A stretch of DNA of 10,534 bases from an uncultured Gloeocapsa sp. (GTDB taxonomy: Bacteria; Cyanobacteriota; Cyanobacteriia; Cyanobacteriales; Gloeocapsaceae): positions 1 to 10,534 of the forward strand of contig CALGKL010000114.1 in the NCBI GenBank assembly GCA_937930495.1, in the 5' to 3' direction. The notes beneath the pieces are model-generated. The model was not told the origin of the DNA. It saw only the letters and a list, made by a program, of their open reading frames with translations, and did no database searches. Every line of letters starts with the position of its first letter. Position 1 is the stretch's first letter. Below are positions 1,607-10,534 of this stretch, piece after piece. Made by a program: the position numbers and the translations under genes.

Positions 1607-1649
1607 TCCTAGTAATTAGACCCAAAAAGATTACAGAGAGTAGGTGTCT

Positions 1650-3416
1650 ATGCGGAGATTACTCATCCTAGTATTGTTTTTAGTTGGTTTAGGATTTGCT
1701 CTAGCTAACTTTCCTGGACTCGCCCAACAGGGAGAATTTGACTCTATTATTATCAATTTTCGGGAAGATTTACCCAAAACCGAAATCAGAGATAAAATTC
1801 AATTCCTCTCAACCAAATATGACCAAGAGATTAACCTCAACAGTGTTTTTAGCATCGAAGATAATATTTACATTCTCAGGGGAGATAAACAACTAATTAA
1901 GACCTTGCGTAAATCGCCCCTAAAACAACTGACCGAATATATCGAGCCTAATTACATTTATAATATACTAGAAGTACCAAACGATCCTGACTATAGCAAA
2001 CAGTGGAATTTGCGTAGTATAAACGTCGAACAGGCTTGGGATGAAACCAAAGGAGAAGGGGTGATAGTCGCTGTCATCGATACAGGAGTTAGCCGAGTAC
2101 CCGATCTCCAACAGACCGAATTTGTTCCCGGTTATGATTTTGTCAACAATCGAACACAAGTTAACGATGACGTCGGACATGGAACCCACGTAGCCGGAAC
2201 TATTGCTCAATCTACGAATAATAACTATGGAGTAGCAGGAATAGCCTACCAAGCCAAAATCATGCCCATTAAAGTCCTCGGTACAGGTGGGGGTACGGTA
2301 GCCGACATCGCCGAAGGGATCCGCTTCGCCGCCGATAATGGCGCACAAGTGATTAACATGAGTTTAGGTGGCGGTGGAGAAAGTCAACTCATGGCTGAAG
2401 CGATTAACTATGCTTACGATAAAGGAGTTGTGATTGTAGCAGCAGCGGGTAACGCTAATCAAAATGCGGCCGCCTACCCCGCGCGATATCCTAAAGTTAT
2501 TGGGGTTTCTGCTTTAGACGCAGCGGGAAATAGAGCTGAATATTCTAACTTTGGTGCAGGAGTAGATATAGCCGCACCAGGAGGAGGAAAAGAAGATAAA
2601 ATCCTGCAAAATACCATCGACCCCACCACGGGTAAATCTGTATTTGTCGGTTACCAGGGAACAAGTATGGCTGCACCCCACGTCGCGGGAGTAGCAGCAA
2701 TGCTCAAAAGTATCGGCGTTGAAGACCCAGGGGAGATCCTCAATATCTTAAAACAATCAGCACGCAAGGTTGATTCGGATCCTCTTAACGAATATGGTGC
2801 AGGACAATTAGACGCAGGAGCCGCAGTTAAATTAGCTTTACGAGGAAAATTGAGTTTTCGTGACTTTTTCCGTTGGGTAAGAGATAATGGCTATCTTAAT
2901 CCTCGTTTTTGGATTGATGGTGGTGCGGTGGCTTTATTGCCTAAAATAGCGATGATGCTAGGTTCTTATCTATTAGCTTGGTTATTGCGCTACTATTTCC
3001 CCTTTGGTTGGAGTTGGTCTCTGAGTAATGGGCTAATTTTTGGTAGCTCTGGTTTATTCTTGTTAAAAGGTTTCTATATCTTTGATTTACCCCAATGGCC
3101 ATTTCGAGTCATGGGTAGTTCTCTAGCTGAGTTGGGTAATGCTATCGGTGGGACACCTGAGTTAAACCCCTTGTTTGCTAGTGTCTTGATCCCCTTTTTA
3201 TTGATTGGTTTATTATCGGGGATTCCTTCGGGTAAACGGTTCGCTATCGGTTGTACTCTAGGGATGACCGTAGCTTTAGCGGTTACAGCTTTTAGTTCTC
3301 CCCATCTCTGGTTATTGGGTTCAGGGGCGATCGCTCAGGGTTTTCTGATCGTTAACGCTTTACTCTGTTTTGGCTTAGCCTATCTAGCTAGTCAAGGAGA
3401 ACCAAAAACCCTATGA
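1650..3416 (+). CDS. Membrane-anchored S8 subtilisin-family serine protease
   Basis: A subtilase of 588 residues from the ATG at 1650. An in-frame GTG at 1644 is less likely, because it lies inside the SD-like AGGTG (1642-1646) that serves the ATG. Numbering from the ATG: signal peptide at 1-26 (MRRLLILVLFLVGLGFALA); a prodomain-like region at about 29-108; then the catalytic domain with D144 (AVIDTG), H177 (GHGTHVAG), oxyanion N268 (AAAGN) and S339 (GTSMAAPHVAG). All key residues are present, so activity is expected. From about residue 425 to 580 the protein continues as a hydrophobic region with about five predicted membrane spans, ending LASQGEPKTL. Most secreted subtilases lack this tail. 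The topology implies a protease domain outside the plasma membrane (or in a thylakoid lumen), tethered by its C-terminus. The stop overlaps the next gene's start (ATGA at 3413-3416), which suggests translational coupling. The substrate is unknown. Confidence 0.93.
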   Translation: MRRLLILVLFLVGLGFALANFPGLAQQGEFDSIIINFREDLPKTEIRDKIQFLSTKYDQEINLNSVFSIEDNIYILRGDKQLIKTLRKSPLKQLTEYIEPNYIYNILEVPNDPDYSKQWNLRSINVEQAWDETKGEGVIVAVIDTGVSRVPDLQQTEFVPGYDFVNNRTQVNDDVGHGTHVAGTIAQSTNNNYGVAGIAYQAKIMPIKVLGTGGGTVADIAEGIRFAADNGAQVINMSLGGGGESQLMAEAINYAYDKGVVIVAAAGNANQNAAAYPARYPKVIGVSALDAAGNRAEYSNFGAGVDIAAPGGGKEDKILQNTIDPTTGKSVFVGYQGTSMAAPHVAGVAAMLKSIGVEDPGEILNILKQSARKVDSDPLNEYGAGQLDAGAAVKLALRGKLSFRDFFRWVRDNGYLNPRFWIDGGAVALLPKIAMMLGSYLLAWLLRYYFPFGWSWSLSNGLIFGSSGLFLLKGFYIFDLPQWPFRVMGSSLAELGNAIGGTPELNPLFASVLIPFLLIGLLSGIPSGKRFAIGCTLGMTVALAVTAFSSPHLWLLGSGAIAQGFLIVNALLCFGLAYLASQGEPKTL

Positions 3417-4343: not shown

Positions 4344-5249
4344 ATGGCAGATCAACTAATCAAAGCCACAGCAGCTGATGGTGGTATTAGAGCGGTAGCA
4401 ACTATCACCAATCGAGTCAGCGAGGAAGCGCGTCAAAGACATAATCTCTCCTACGTAGCCACAGCAGCTTTAGGGAGAGCAATGTCTGCGGGTTTGTTAT
4501 TGGCTTCTAGTATGAAAACAGAAGCTTCTCGAGTCAACATTCGCATTAAAGGGAATGGACCATTAGGTGGTTTACTAGTTGATGCTGGAGTAGATGGCAC
4601 AGTCAGAGGGTATGTTAATAACCCTAGGGTAGAACTTCCCCCCAATGGGATAGGGAAATTAGATGTAGGAGGAGCGATCGGTAAACAGGGGTATCTCTAC
4701 GTGGTTAGGGATGTCGGTTATGGTTACCCCTATTCTAGTACCGTAGAATTAGTCTCGGGAGAAGTGGGCGAGGATATCGCTAATTATCTGGTTAACTCTG
4801 AACAAACTCCTTCGGCTTTATTAGTTGGGGTATTCGTGGGCGCCGAAGGTGTTACTGCTTCGGGAGGATTATTATTACAAGTAATGCCCAAAGCTGCTCA
4901 AGATGAGAGTCTGGTAGCACTCCTAGAATCTAGAGTCAGTAAATTAAGAGGATTTACCAATCTGTTGCGAGATGGTTATACCATCCCCACCATTTTCCAA
5001 GAGTTATTGGGGGATTTAGGGTTAAATATCTTACCGGAGGTACAATTAGTCCGTTTTGATTGTAGTTGTTCTTTGGAAAGGATGTTAGGTGCTCTGAAAA
5101 TGTTGGGAGAAGCTGAGTTACAAGATATGATCGAAAAAGATAACGGTGCTGAAGCTACCTGTCATTTTTGTAACCAGGTTTATCAAGCTAGTGGGGAAGA
5201 ATTAGCTCAATTAATCGCTGATTTGAAAACTGCTGATAGTCTCGGATAG
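4344..5249 (+). CDS. hslO: Hsp33 redox-regulated molecular chaperone
   Basis: A 301-residue cytosolic holdase that is switched on by oxidative unfolding stress and protects proteins from aggregation. The N-terminal core (about residues 3-180) has the family's typical MADQLIKATA start, RHNLSYVATAALGRAM at about 32-47, GNGPLGGL at 70-77 and GYVNNP at 89-94. The C-terminal redox switch is intact: C240-x-C242 (FDCSCSLERM) and C273-x-x-C276 (TCHFC), 30 residues apart. In the reduced state these four cysteines bind one zinc; on oxidation they form two disulfides and release the linker. Length fits the family (about 290-300). The ATG at 4344 follows AAGGA at 4336-4340. The gene lies alone between the DUF937-like gene and a convergent minus-strand gene. 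Nothing is missing or odd. Confidence 0.97.
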   Translation: MADQLIKATAADGGIRAVATITNRVSEEARQRHNLSYVATAALGRAMSAGLLLASSMKTEASRVNIRIKGNGPLGGLLVDAGVDGTVRGYVNNPRVELPPNGIGKLDVGGAIGKQGYLYVVRDVGYGYPYSSTVELVSGEVGEDIANYLVNSEQTPSALLVGVFVGAEGVTASGGLLLQVMPKAAQDESLVALLESRVSKLRGFTNLLRDGYTIPTIFQELLGDLGLNILPEVQLVRFDCSCSLERMLGALKMLGEAELQDMIEKDNGAEATCHFCNQVYQASGEELAQLIADLKTADSLG

Positions 5250-5292: not shown

Positions 5293-5730
5293 TCAATCAT
5301 CATCTGTAATGGTAATTTCTAGACTGTAATCAGAGCGTAGATGCTCAAAATTAGTATTGACAAAAGGCATTAGAAAAACGCGTATTATATAATCACCACT
5401 TTCGGGAAGAAATAGCCGAAATACATCCCCTCCCATCTTAAAACTGTTAAAAATAGGTCTTGGGGTTTTACCAGCAATGGCGATCTCAAAATTAGTGCCT
5501 ACATAACCACTCCTCAGGATGATGCTCATGTATTGTCCTTCACGAGCATTGACCAAATATACTACTTCTTCATCGACTCTAATTGAACCTGTAATTACTT
5601 TACTGAAAGTGCCACTCTCGAATTGAACCCTCTCTGTGCGAGTATTATATTGTCCCCAAACCGGTGTAACTAAAATGGCCGGCGAACCGAGCAACGTAGC
5701 TAATAATAAAGATTGGGCAATTTTGCGCAT
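5293..5730 (-). CDS. Small secreted protein, PPC-like beta-sandwich (function unknown)
   Basis: A 145-residue protein with a clear Sec signal peptide (MRKIAQSLLLATLLGSPAILVTPVWG, likely cleaved near residue 26). The mature part is short, about 119 residues, and beta-rich: RVQFESGTFSKVITGSI, then EEVVYLVNAREGQYMSIILRS, NFEIAIAG, FRLFLPESGDYIIRVFL and SDYSLEITITDDD. The run 'x-Y-x-V-x-A-x-x-G-Q-x-M' followed later by 'L-P-x-S-G-D-Y-x-I-x-V' is what is seen in PPC-like (bacterial pre-peptidase C-terminal) jelly-roll domains and in small secreted proteins sometimes named after g-type lysozyme inhibitors. I infer a stand-alone domain of that kind in the periplasm or outside the cell. No cysteines are present. 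The gene lies 33 bp downstream of the aldehyde dehydrogenase on the same strand and shares its terminator, but no functional link is evident. The ATG at 5730 has no clear Shine-Dalgarno. Confidence 0.82.
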   Translation of the reverse strand: MRKIAQSLLLATLLGSPAILVTPVWGQYNTRTERVQFESGTFSKVITGSIRVDEEVVYLVNAREGQYMSIILRSGYVGTNFEIAIAGKTPRPIFNSFKMGGDVFRLFLPESGDYIIRVFLMPFVNTNFEHLRSDYSLEITITDDD

Positions 5731-7275: not shown

Positions 7276-8457
7276 ATGAGTACACATATAGACGGAATTA
7301 CCCCTCACGGTGGTCATCTCATCAATCGGATCGCTACAGCAGCAGAAAGAGCCGAATTTCTGGAGTTAGCAGACTCTTTACCGAGAGTACAACTAGACCA
7401 AAGAGCAGAATCTGACCTAGTAATGATCGCCATCGGTGGTTTTAGTCCCTTAAAAGGATTTATGGACCAAGCAGACTATGAGACAGTGGTTGAAGATATG
7501 CGTCTGACTAATGGTCTTCCCTGGTCTTTACCGGTTACTCTTTCGGTCTCAGAAGAAGTCGCCGACTCCCTGAAAGAGGGTAATTGGGTACGTCTAGATA
7601 ACTCAGAGGGTAAATTCATCGGTGTTTTAGAACTAACCCAAAAATATCACTATAATAAAGCTCACGAAGCAGTTAACGTTTATCTAACCGACGACCATAA
7701 ACATCCCGGTGTTAAAGTCTTATATGAATCCGGTCCGGTTAATTTAGCAGGTCCTGTTTGGTTGTTAGCAAGAGAACCCCATCCTCTGTTTCCTTCCTAT
7801 CAAATAGATCCTGTTCAATCACGAGCCATGTTTAAAGAGAAAGGATGGCAAACCATAGTAGGTTTTCAAACCCGTAACCCCATACATCGCGCTCACGAAT
7901 ATATTCAAAAATGTGCTATGGAGGTAGTAGATGGTCTATTCTTACACCCTCTCGTCGGTGCTACTAAAGAAGACGATATCCCCGCTGATGTGAGAATGCG
8001 CTGTTATGAGATTATGCTGGAAAAATATTATCCTCGCGATCGCGTTATTCTGGCGATCAATCCTTCGGCGATGCGTTACGCGGGTCCTCGCGAAGCGATT
8101 TTCCACGCTTTAATCCGTAAAAACTATGGTTGCACCCATTTTATCGTAGGTAGAGACCACGCCGGTGTAGGGGATTATTACGGGACTTACGACGCACAAA
8201 AGATTTTTGCTCAGTTTGAACCCCAAGAGTTAGAAATCGTCCCGATGATGTTTGAACACGCTTTTTATTGTAAGTTAACCCAACAAATGGCCACCACCAA
8301 AACTAGTCCCGCGACTAAAGAGGATCGTATTCACCTTTCCGGGACAAAAGTAAGAGAAATGCTTCGACGTGGAGAATTACCACCTCCTGAATTTTCCCGT
8401 CCTGAAGTGGCCGCAGAATTATCTAAAGCGATGCAATCTCAAGAGAAAGGGCTTTAA
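7276..8457 (+). CDS. sat: Sulfate adenylyltransferase (ATP sulfurylase)
   Basis: A 393-residue homo-oligomeric-type ATP sulfurylase, which makes adenosine 5'-phosphosulfate and pyrophosphate from ATP and sulfate as the first step of sulfate assimilation. Family markers are all present: the N-terminal PUA-like part with [10 protein letters not shown] (54-63); the nucleotide-binding [10 protein letters not shown] (198-207), the HxGH-like motif in which R200, H204 and H207 contact ATP and sulfate; [12 protein letters not shown] (292-303), the second signature; and [15 protein letters not shown] near the end. There is no APS-kinase domain and no regulatory C-terminal extension. Length and the conserved opening ([15 protein letters not shown]) fit cyanobacterial Sat, which supports ATG 7276. 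A strong terminator follows, and no other sulfur gene is adjacent. It starts 45 bp from the divergent aldehyde dehydrogenase. Confidence 0.97.
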
Positions 8458-8467
8458 TTAATAATTT

Positions 8468-8500
8468 CCCGTACTTTTCAATGGTTACGGGCTTTTTTTT
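8468..8500 (+). terminator. Intrinsic terminator after sat
   Basis: A 6-bp GC-rich stem (CCCGTA 8468-8473, TACGGG 8486-8491, loop of 12) is followed by CTTTTTTTT to 8500. It starts 10 bp after the sat stop. It separates sat from the caspase-like gene whose ATG is 44 bp further on. Confidence 0.82.
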
Positions 8501-8543: not shown

Positions 8544-10534
8544 ATGAGAATTGAACGAAGGCGGTTTTTACAACAAACAGGATTAGCTGTACTAACTCTA
8601 GGTACTAGTCAACTCACCCTACCTGGATTTAACCGCTATGTTCAAACTCTCGCTGCAACTACTAACCGTAAGTTAGCCTTGTTGGTGGGAATCAATCAAT
8701 ATCCTCATTATCCTCAATTGAATGGTTGTCTAACGGATGTGGAGTTACAACGGGAGTTGTTGATTCACCGTTTTAATTTTCAACCGGAAGATATTCTCGT
8801 TCTCACCGACAAAGAAGCTACCAGGGAAAATATCGAAACCGCTTTTAGTGAACATCTGATTAAACAAGCAAAAGCCACCGATGTGGTGGTTTTTCACTTT
8901 AGCGGTTATGGTAGTTTAGTCAATATTTCTGATCAAGTTAATCAACAATCTCTACTCCCTGGTTTAGTACCGGTAGATAGCAGTTTTCCGACTAAAAATA
9001 ACTCCACTAGTAACAATTTACTAGAAAAAACCCTGATTTTATTAGCTCAATCTTTACCTACGGATAAGGTTACCCTGGTTTTGGATACGAGTTATCTAAC
9101 CCCTTCTCAATTATTCCAAGGTAACTTGAAAGTTCGTTCTTTACTTCCACCTAATCAACAAACAGAAAACATTTCAGAGGTAGCTTTTGCTGAACAAGTA
9201 CGCTTAACTATCCCTTCCATTAAGAAAAATCTTCAACCGCTCTTATTACACGCGGGAGCGGAAAATCAGTTAGCGGTGGAACAACGTTGGTCAAACTTTA
9301 GCGCTGGTTTATTTACTTATAATCTCACTCAATACCTGTGGTCAAGGATTCCACCGAGTAATTTAATTAGTTGTCTGAGTCAAACTAGTGCTAATATCGC
9401 TAGGATTATGGGGAGTCAACAACAACCCCAACTCAATAAATCGATAACTGCTTCTGATTTTGTTTATTATCTCGAACCTCAACAAACTTTATCCTCTATT
9501 GGTTATCTTAGTTCGGTCTCAGAAGAAGTCCAAATTAAATTACTCGGTTTACCTGCTAGGGTTTTGGCTAATTATAGTGTTAATTCTCTATTGACTATCC
9601 CTGGGTTAAAATCTGAGCAATATTTACAACTTCGTAGCATTAATAAATTTACAGGTAATGCTCATTGGCTCGGGGATAATCCCCCTCAAACCATAGAAGT
9701 TGGCCAAGTGGTGCAAGAATATATTAGGGTTTTAGCTAAAGATCTCAAATTAGTTATCGCTTTAGATAGCAGTTTAGAAAGAATTGAACGAGTAGATGCT
9801 ACCAGTGGACTGGTTAATCTGAATCTAATCTCTAATATAGTTAATCTCGGTGAACAAGGGGCTGATTGTTTATTAGGAAAAACCGAAACGGGTTATGGTT
9901 TATTCACCCCAGGAGGTAGTCTGATTCCCAAAACCACAGGAGAAGTCAACGAAGCGATTAAATCTGCGGTTACTCGTTTGACTCCTAAATTAGAAGTAGT
10001 TTTAGCAGCTAAATTAAGCAGACTTACCCTGAATCAAGCTTCTTCTCGTTTACCAGTAGAGGCTAGTTTAACTATTTTTGACCAACGCCATCAAATTATT
10101 TGGCAAAAAATCAGCCAATCGGGAGGTAAACAGGATAAAGTTACCACTAAAAATGTCGGACAATTCTTACCAACTATCCCTGTGGGTAATTCCCTTCAAT
10201 ATCGTTTGACCAATCTAGGTGATAGTGCGATTTATTTTCTCTTATTGAGTATCTTACCCCATAATCAGGCGATCGCCCTCTACAGTCCTCCTCCCCATCA
10301 AACAACTTTACCCTCTGGGATTAATCCGGGTGAAACTAGGGTTATCCCTAATCCGAATAATTCTTTTACCTGGAAAATTTCTGAACCTTTAGGAGTTACA
10401 GAAACCTTGGTTATTTGTAGTACTCAACCCTTTGCTCACACTCTTGAGCTTTTAAGCAATCAACAACAAACTCTCGGTAATAAAGAAACGATTTTACTTT
10501 TACCTAAACCTTTAGGGGTGATCCAAGCTATTCT
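8544..10534 (+). CDS. Tat-exported caspase-fold (orthocaspase-like) pseudo-protease with DUF4384-type tail; 3' end outside window
   Basis: The frame stays open from ATG 8544 to the window end (663 complete codons, no stop). Residues 4-10, ERRRFLQ, plus a hydrophobic stretch (TGLAVLTLG) form a twin-arginine signal. Residues about 42-300 are a caspase-like p20 domain: RKLALLVGINQYP (42-54), LNGCLTDVELQRELLI (59-74), the strand VVVFHFSGYGS (114-124) and VTLVLDTSYLT (176-186). The active caspase family reads HFSGHG and D-x-C-H-S-G here. The catalytic His is Tyr122 (TAT at 8907) and the catalytic Cys is Ser183 (AGT at 9090), so a cysteine protease dyad is absent. A long middle region (about 310-540) is mixed alpha/beta. 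Residues about 540-635 (YRLTNLGDSAIYFLLLSILP, then PLGVTETLVICSTQPF) match the DUF4384 pattern common in cyanobacterial caspase homologues. Substitutions of both residues to Y and S are a known recurring variant in cyanobacteria, so this is not a sequencing artefact. An upstream in-frame GTG at 8538 is less likely as start. Confidence 0.92.
   Translation, partial: MRIERRRFLQQTGLAVLTLGTSQLTLPGFNRYVQTLAATTNRKLALLVGINQYPHYPQLNGCLTDVELQRELLIHRFNFQPEDILVLTDKEATRENIETAFSEHLIKQAKATDVVVFHFSGYGSLVNISDQVNQQSLLPGLVPVDSSFPTKNNSTSNNLLEKTLILLAQSLPTDKVTLVLDTSYLTPSQLFQGNLKVRSLLPPNQQTENISEVAFAEQVRLTIPSIKKNLQPLLLHAGAENQLAVEQRWSNFSAGLFTYNLTQYLWSRIPPSNLISCLSQTSANIARIMGSQQQPQLNKSITASDFVYYLEPQQTLSSIGYLSSVSEEVQIKLLGLPARVLANYSVNSLLTIPGLKSEQYLQLRSINKFTGNAHWLGDNPPQTIEVGQVVQEYIRVLAKDLKLVIALDSSLERIERVDATSGLVNLNLISNIVNLGEQGADCLLGKTETGYGLFTPGGSLIPKTTGEVNEAIKSAVTRLTPKLEVVLAAKLSRLTLNQASSRLPVEASLTIFDQRHQIIWQKISQSGGKQDKVTTKNVGQFLPTIPVGNSLQYRLTNLGDSAIYFLLLSILPHNQAIALYSPPPHQTTLPSGINPGETRVIPNPNNSFTWKISEPLGVTETLVICSTQPFAHTLELLSNQQQTLGNKETILLLPKPLGVIQAI

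Follow-up and report, generated by a model that had tools for sequence, protein, structure and literature searches.

A Tyr-Ser pseudo-orthocaspase with a twin-arginine signal and a retained acidic pocket in an uncultured Gloeocapsa

What is the role of a caspase homologue that has lost both catalytic residues and carries an export signal? The question is raised by the last gene of a 10,534-nucleotide stretch of DNA from an uncultured Gloeocapsa sp. (assembly GCA_937930495.1, contig CALGKL010000114.1; G000:C114:1-10534), here called the window, which belongs to an incomplete genome (1.82 Mb in 344 contigs, 77% complete). Many unicellular cyanobacteria have no caspase homologues other than such inactive relatives, whose function is presented as an open question (PMC6426788). 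The window protein is a new member of the published cyanobacterial class of Tyr-Ser (YS) pseudo-orthocaspases, which is widespread and conserved, and its probable function is protein binding rather than cleavage. The computations showed a dead dyad, retained pocket residues, a twin-arginine (Tat) motif, purifying selection and a single clade beside paralogues with an intact His-Cys (HC) dyad.

Replacement of the catalytic dyad

The open reading frame (ORF) continues without a stop from either of two possible start codons to the end of the window (Table 1). Loci extracted around the gene also end at 10534, and the 3' end of the gene is thus missing from the assembly. Relatives with 80% identity, the nearest named one from Gloeocapsa sp. 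DLM2.Bin57, have 698 residues, indicating a loss of ~33 residues from the window protein. In both congeners (G001 and G002) the protein starts with MRIERRRFLQ, which supports the ATG start and the numbering Y122/S183 of the initial annotation. Residue numbers below count from the alternative GTG unless stated, making this pair Y124/S185. The Pfam comparison placed the p20 caspase domain (Peptidase_C14, PF00656) at residues 44-304 (62.5 bits, cut-off 21.4) and DUF4384 at residues 548-631 (36.2 bits, cut-off 27). Structural alignment matched residues 44-316 of the model to chain residues 2-423 of metacaspase 4. No defence role was read from a sub-threshold NCBIfam match (EACC1-associated caspase) or a partial PADLOC generic-caspase match.

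The HFSGYG and DTSY motifs of the window protein align with the equivalent motifs of the 120 relatives listed among 2986 matches. With the query included, these 121 close sequences comprise 115 YS, four YG, one FS and one HS dyads. The same columns in the HC-type paralogues read HFSGHG or HYSGHG and mostly DSCHSG. The alignment thus bears out the initial annotation, which had reported both catalytic residues as replaced and had assigned the protein to a YS class; that class is indeed described in PMC6426788. The His-Cys dyad of active orthocaspases is absent from the window protein, and no alternative His or Cys occupies the active-site columns.

A scan of the genome contigs with the single protein found no relatives. 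A profile built from 78 sequences was then searched in 386 genomes drawn from the phylum, with at most two candidates scored per genome, and matched 129 of them (not every match was read individually). Two matching places were found in 38 of the 129 genomes, at least one of which (G046) holds a single gene in two pieces. From the matching places, 100 regions were picked by hand, in some but not all of the matching genomes, giving 91 pseudo-orthocaspase copies (L062-L151, L161) and nine HC copies (L152-L160). A further 20 regions added 19 HC copies (L162-L180) and one region without a match (L181), bringing the HC copies to 28. The dyads at the 91 pseudo-orthocaspase loci are 63 YS, 16 YG, four FS, three CS, two HG and one each of YC, LG and LS, with no HC. 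The DxCHSG catalytic loop is eroded in these proteins as well. Judged from its sequence, the window protein should therefore lack catalytic activity.

Retention of the substrate pocket

The acidic specificity pocket of the class is described as two Asp, a Cys and a Ser (PMC6426788), which were assigned here by spacing to D67, D183, C64 and S122. In 92 pseudo-orthocaspases, D67, S122 and D183 are 100% conserved and C64 is 91% conserved. Among the 56 positions conserved to at least 97% in an HC group of 35 proteins, 12 stay at 99% or above in the pseudo-orthocaspases, including D67, S122 and D183 (P 0.008). C64 was excluded from this test because it is only 89% conserved in the HC group. The retention also holds with a 95% limit (P 0.03) and with the long HC proteins only (n=31; 12 of 47 positions, P 0.014); the HC group includes four short proteins without the middle region. 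By comparison, 20 of the 56 positions fall below 80% or are changed in the pseudo-orthocaspases, and these include the catalytic pair as well as the Gly in DSCHSG.

Selection on the gene

Ratios of nonsynonymous to synonymous substitution (omega) were computed by the Nei-Gojobori method for 12 chosen pairs; the regional values are rough, with synonymous divergence above 1 in several. The overall omega ranged from 0.085 to 0.300. The window gene and its congeneric counterpart at L063 gave 0.181 overall, 0.157 in the caspase part and 0.173 in residues 114-186, the region singled out for this comparison in the initial annotation. The Tat stretch reached 0.9 in one pair. No internal stop was present in any match listed from the phylum genome search. 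By these sequence measures, the gene is under overall purifying selection and is not decaying.

Export signal, active paralogues and origin

The Tat signal proposed initially was recovered, with RRRFL followed by LAA at the N terminus of the window protein. All 92 pseudo-orthocaspases have the RR pair in a loose search, 88 have the strict motif (RRx[FL] followed by a hydrophobic residue) and 77 an AxA-like site. The HC paralogues have the same signal (Tat-type RR in 28 of 28, strict motif in 27) and share the Tat, caspase and middle-region layout, with both C14 and DUF4384 matched in all six checked. They occur in genomes that also match with a pseudo-orthocaspase copy. The non-proteolytic role proposed at first still fits best, but neither the signal nor the tail is peculiar to the dead form. 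The Tat extension likewise does not separate YS proteins from all active forms, contrary to what the wording of PMC6426788 implies.

A tree was built from 68 chosen rows (35 of the 92 pseudo-orthocaspases, 15 of the 28 HC copies, eight more HC Tat loci and ten other caspase homologues), in which L148 is a long branch and L028 and L172 duplicate one another. The pseudo-orthocaspases form one clade apart from the HC orthocaspases (support 99/98), which persists with the dyad columns blanked (support 96). The Tat group of pseudo-orthocaspases and HC Tat proteins is set apart from the ten other homologues (support 95/96). The simplest reading of these sequence relationships is that the pseudo form arose once, either from an active orthocaspase exported by Tat or alongside one. 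The HC Tat paralogues themselves were not accepted as a single clade (support only 69; five label changes for the long HC set). Short HC homologues with a Tat signal (L012, L015, L025, L026), of ~400 residues and without the middle region and DUF4384, form a further branch of the Tat group.

Middle region and tail

Between the caspase domain and DUF4384 lie a small beta-barrel and an alpha/beta domain (Table 1). The pattern of the RIERVDATS motif in the latter occurs in 85 of the 92 pseudo-orthocaspases and in none of the 31 long HC paralogues. Nine positions (I416, E417, V419, D420, T422, S423, D443, Y453 and K492) are 95-100% conserved in the pseudo-orthocaspases and not common to the HC group. 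However, the middle region is not more conserved overall in the pseudo-orthocaspases, with 19 of 218 positions at 95% or above compared with 24 in the long HC proteins. Searches with a profile of the middle region and tail gave 201 matches, and 117 of the 120 listed carry a caspase domain, showing that the two parts stay together. The other three are short (441-460 residues), lie on contigs of 2-4 kb and are probably cut genes. In the structure search with a model of the middle and tail, the matches were filled by the small barrel; the alpha/beta domain is accordingly not claimed as a novel fold.

Weighing of the possible roles

These features lead us to infer the export, location, ligand, partner and role of the window protein. 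The protein would fold as a precursor before the Tat system carries it into either the periplasm or the thylakoid lumen. It would not cleave proteins, having lost the His-Cys dyad along with the catalytic loop. Its caspase fold would still keep the acidic pocket, which holds an Arg or Lys side chain in active relatives and here would most likely bind basic segments exposed on envelope or lumen proteins. The middle domain with its RIERVDATS motif and the DUF4384 tail could then relay binding, the protein serving as a scaffold or a sensor in the physiology of stress. With some confidence, we lean towards a binding or scaffold protein that is exported, does not cleave and retains a pocket for basic segments.

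Several observations weigh against this role. The HC group conserves the pocket residues just as strictly (D67, S122 and D183 100%, C64 89%), and stability may be what preserves them; sites are treated as independent in the P values of the retention test, and pocket retention had already been proposed from logos and models (PMC6426788). In two close pairs with few changes, omega of residues 114-186 is 0.58-0.60. TatC was found in both congeners, whereas its match in the window's own genome is sub-threshold (19.2 bits), which probably reflects the incompleteness of this genome. Lastly, the functionally studied relative SyOC is of the YG type and is set beside the window protein by description only (PMC7889975).

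An alternative, unlikely but to be taken seriously, is that the caspase fold is a structural platform and that function resides in the middle domain and the DUF4384 tail, for instance as an envelope or thylakoid assembly factor. The nine pseudo-specific middle positions and the joint occurrence of the parts are as expected for a platform. However, the lack of greater overall conservation in the middle region and the retention of the pocket speak against it, as does the lower omega of the caspase part than of the middle in two window pairs (0.157 vs. 0.193 and 0.19 vs. 0.237), an order not kept in every pair. Binding through the pocket is therefore favoured over a pure platform role.

It is improbable that the protein regulates an active Tat-exported HC paralogue by pairing with it or competing for its substrates, a mode of action suggested for inactive relatives of caspases in other systems. 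Such paralogues, alike in layout and signal, do occur alongside a matching pseudo copy in some genomes. However, the window's genome and G001 (99% complete) have one PF00656 match each and G002 has two, and 91 of the 129 matching genomes have a single matching place (within the two candidates scored per genome; some of the single copies were not read). The same argument is made for unicellular species in PMC6426788. Of the roles in the initial annotation, binding or scaffold fits best, whereas that of a decoy, if for an active relative, is unlikely here.

Altered catalysis with Ser as the nucleophile of a hydrolysis or transfer reaction is more improbable still. YS is the commonest dyad, at 63 of 91 loci, but Gly takes the place of Ser in 19 of the 92 pseudo-orthocaspases and Cys does so in one, the Tyr position is Phe, Cys, Leu or His in 11, and the loop is eroded. 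Ser chemistry as a family function, also raised initially, is therefore unsupported, and such chemistry may occur within a subgroup. Decay of the gene can be set aside: the dyad substitutions differ between lineages, the contig end truncates the gene in the window and omega of residues 114-186 is raised in two close pairs with few changes, but the low overall omega, the absence of stops within the listed matches and the spread of the family over 129 of 386 genomes oppose it.

Gene neighbourhood and feature map

The sat gene lies upstream on the same strand at 58 of 91 loci (L062-L150, L161 and the window) and is directly adjacent at 54. In a separate measurement, sat was linked at 57 of the 91 fetched pseudo-orthocaspase loci, over 16 of 27 family codes, and at none of the 28 HC loci, whose flanks are mostly shorter (~2 kb compared with ~5 kb for most pseudo-orthocaspase loci). 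The gap between sat and the GTG in the window is 80 bases and contains a terminator-like hairpin (fold z -2.2; 6 of 200 shuffles equally good). A promoter and terminator scan flagged nothing in the gap, as it permits loops of 3-8 only and the loop of this hairpin is longer. By the hairpin rule, a terminator-like site is present in only a few of the other linked loci (L062, L106, L113, L120). Co-transcription is thus not indicated in the window, and sat and the pseudo-orthocaspase gene were not taken as one operon. The linkage may also reflect promoters inside sat, since transcription start sites lie inside the gene preceding the Nodularia metacaspase M32 (PMC4933709).

The listed start of an aldehyde dehydrogenase ORF on the minus strand overlaps the start of sat at 7276-7317; the ORF of a congener begins at an internal MVNFPQ, which suggests the true start. 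After sat, the next commonest neighbour occurs at 15 of 91 loci. An ORF which we take to be methylthioadenosine phosphorylase-like, a name that agrees with the Nodularia locus described below, lies near the pseudo-orthocaspase gene at 15 of 91 loci. The window ORF at 4344-5249 (+) resembles the redox chaperone Hsp33, and its ORF family lies near the pseudo-orthocaspase gene at four of 91 loci. The window also holds a second protease-type gene, a subtilase (Peptidase_S8) with a C-terminal DUF5942 at 1644-3416 (+), and, at 5293-5730 (-), a 145-residue protein that begins with a signal-like stretch and matches nothing in Pfam or NCBIfam.

Table 1. Features of the pseudo-orthocaspase gene and its upstream region in the window (residues in GTG numbering unless stated)
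Feature	Position	Strand	Remarks
sat, ATP sulfurylase, conserved upstream neighbour	7276..8457	+	
Terminator-like hairpin and T-run in the gap downstream of sat	8468..8499	+	CCCGTA..TACGGG + T8
Pseudo-orthocaspase gene	8544..10534	+	ATG 8544, alternative GTG 8538; 3' end cut by contig end
Tat signal region	8544..8660	+	RRRFLQ, LAA-type cleavage region before core
Pocket residues C64 and D67	8727..8738	+	C64 84/92, D67 92/92 pseudo-orthocaspases
Pocket residue S122	8901..8903	+	92/92 pseudo-orthocaspases
Tyr replacing catalytic His (Y122 from ATG, Y124 from GTG)	8907..8909	+	alignment
Pocket residue D183	9084..9086	+	92/92 pseudo-orthocaspases
Ser replacing catalytic Cys (S183 from ATG, S185 from GTG)	9090..9092	+	alignment
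Small beta-barrel resembling the N-terminal crown domain of F1-ATPase alpha/beta subunits	9495..9728	+	
Middle alpha/beta domain	9744..10082	+	limits approximate; no Pfam match above cut-off
RIERVDATS motif	9780..9806	+	pattern I[ED]x[VI]DA[TS][SA]
DUF4384 domain	10179..10430	+	Pfam match

A wider and rather doubtful proposal is that a protease which retained its substrate pocket while losing cleavage turned long ago into an exported receptor that recognizes basic stretches of proteins. The family would have had a single origin in an orthocaspase exported by Tat and acquired a new, near-invariant motif in its middle domain, and its long-standing position next to sat would tie it to the control of sulfur or redox stress.

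Comparison with known systems

The window protein shares its YS dyad, p20 caspase domain, Tat-like N terminus and acidic pocket with the YS pseudo-orthocaspases of Klemencic et al. 2019 (PMC6426788), which reports the class, its N-terminal extension with RR and A-x-A, the conserved pocket and a hypothesis of a role in photosynthesis or the thylakoid. These proteins are described as mostly having no other identifiable domain, whereas DUF4384 passes the Pfam cut-off in the window protein; this domain is listed in four pseudo-orthocaspases in PMC8283722. As far as the available text of the cited papers goes, the HC paralogues of the same layout, the invariant pocket against an eroded loop, the specificity of the RIERVDATS motif and the breadth of the sat linkage, previously described for one genome, extend their findings.

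SyOC of Synechocystis PCC 6803 (PMC7889975) is likewise a pseudo-orthocaspase of a unicellular cyanobacterium and the single caspase homologue there (PMC6426788). Its dyad is Tyr-Gly, unlike the Tyr-Ser of the window protein, to which it is likened by description. Deletion of SyOC raises H2O2 tolerance (PMC7889975). The Nodularia spumigena metacaspase M32 (PMC4933709), which we infer to be a YS protein, likewise adjoins sulfate adenylyltransferase, together with methylthioadenosine phosphorylase, and its authors suggested that it has a house-keeping function and is connected to sulfur. This is the one genome for which the literature search returned a description of the sat neighbour, and no wider survey was found in the sources available. 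The YS pseudo-metacaspase TbMC4 of Trypanosoma brucei shows the same dyad replacement in a caspase fold; it is eukaryotic and processed by an active metacaspase, unlike the window protein (cited in PMC6426788), and its replacement is probably an independent loss.

A further comparison is with the Tat-motif HC orthocaspases (L152-L160, L162-L180). PMC6426788 singles out the N-terminal extension as the feature that most strikingly distinguishes the class from forms presumed active, whereas these paralogues have the Tat motif, caspase domain and middle region, with DUF4384 in those checked. They differ from the window protein in an intact HC dyad and catalytic loop and in the absence of both the RIERVDATS-type motif and an upstream sat. 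Being intact in their catalytic residues but alike in export signal and layout, these paralogues offer a direct comparison pair for the pseudo form, and the pseudo-specific motif and the retained pocket offer targets for point mutations that would separate a binding role from a platform and a regulator.
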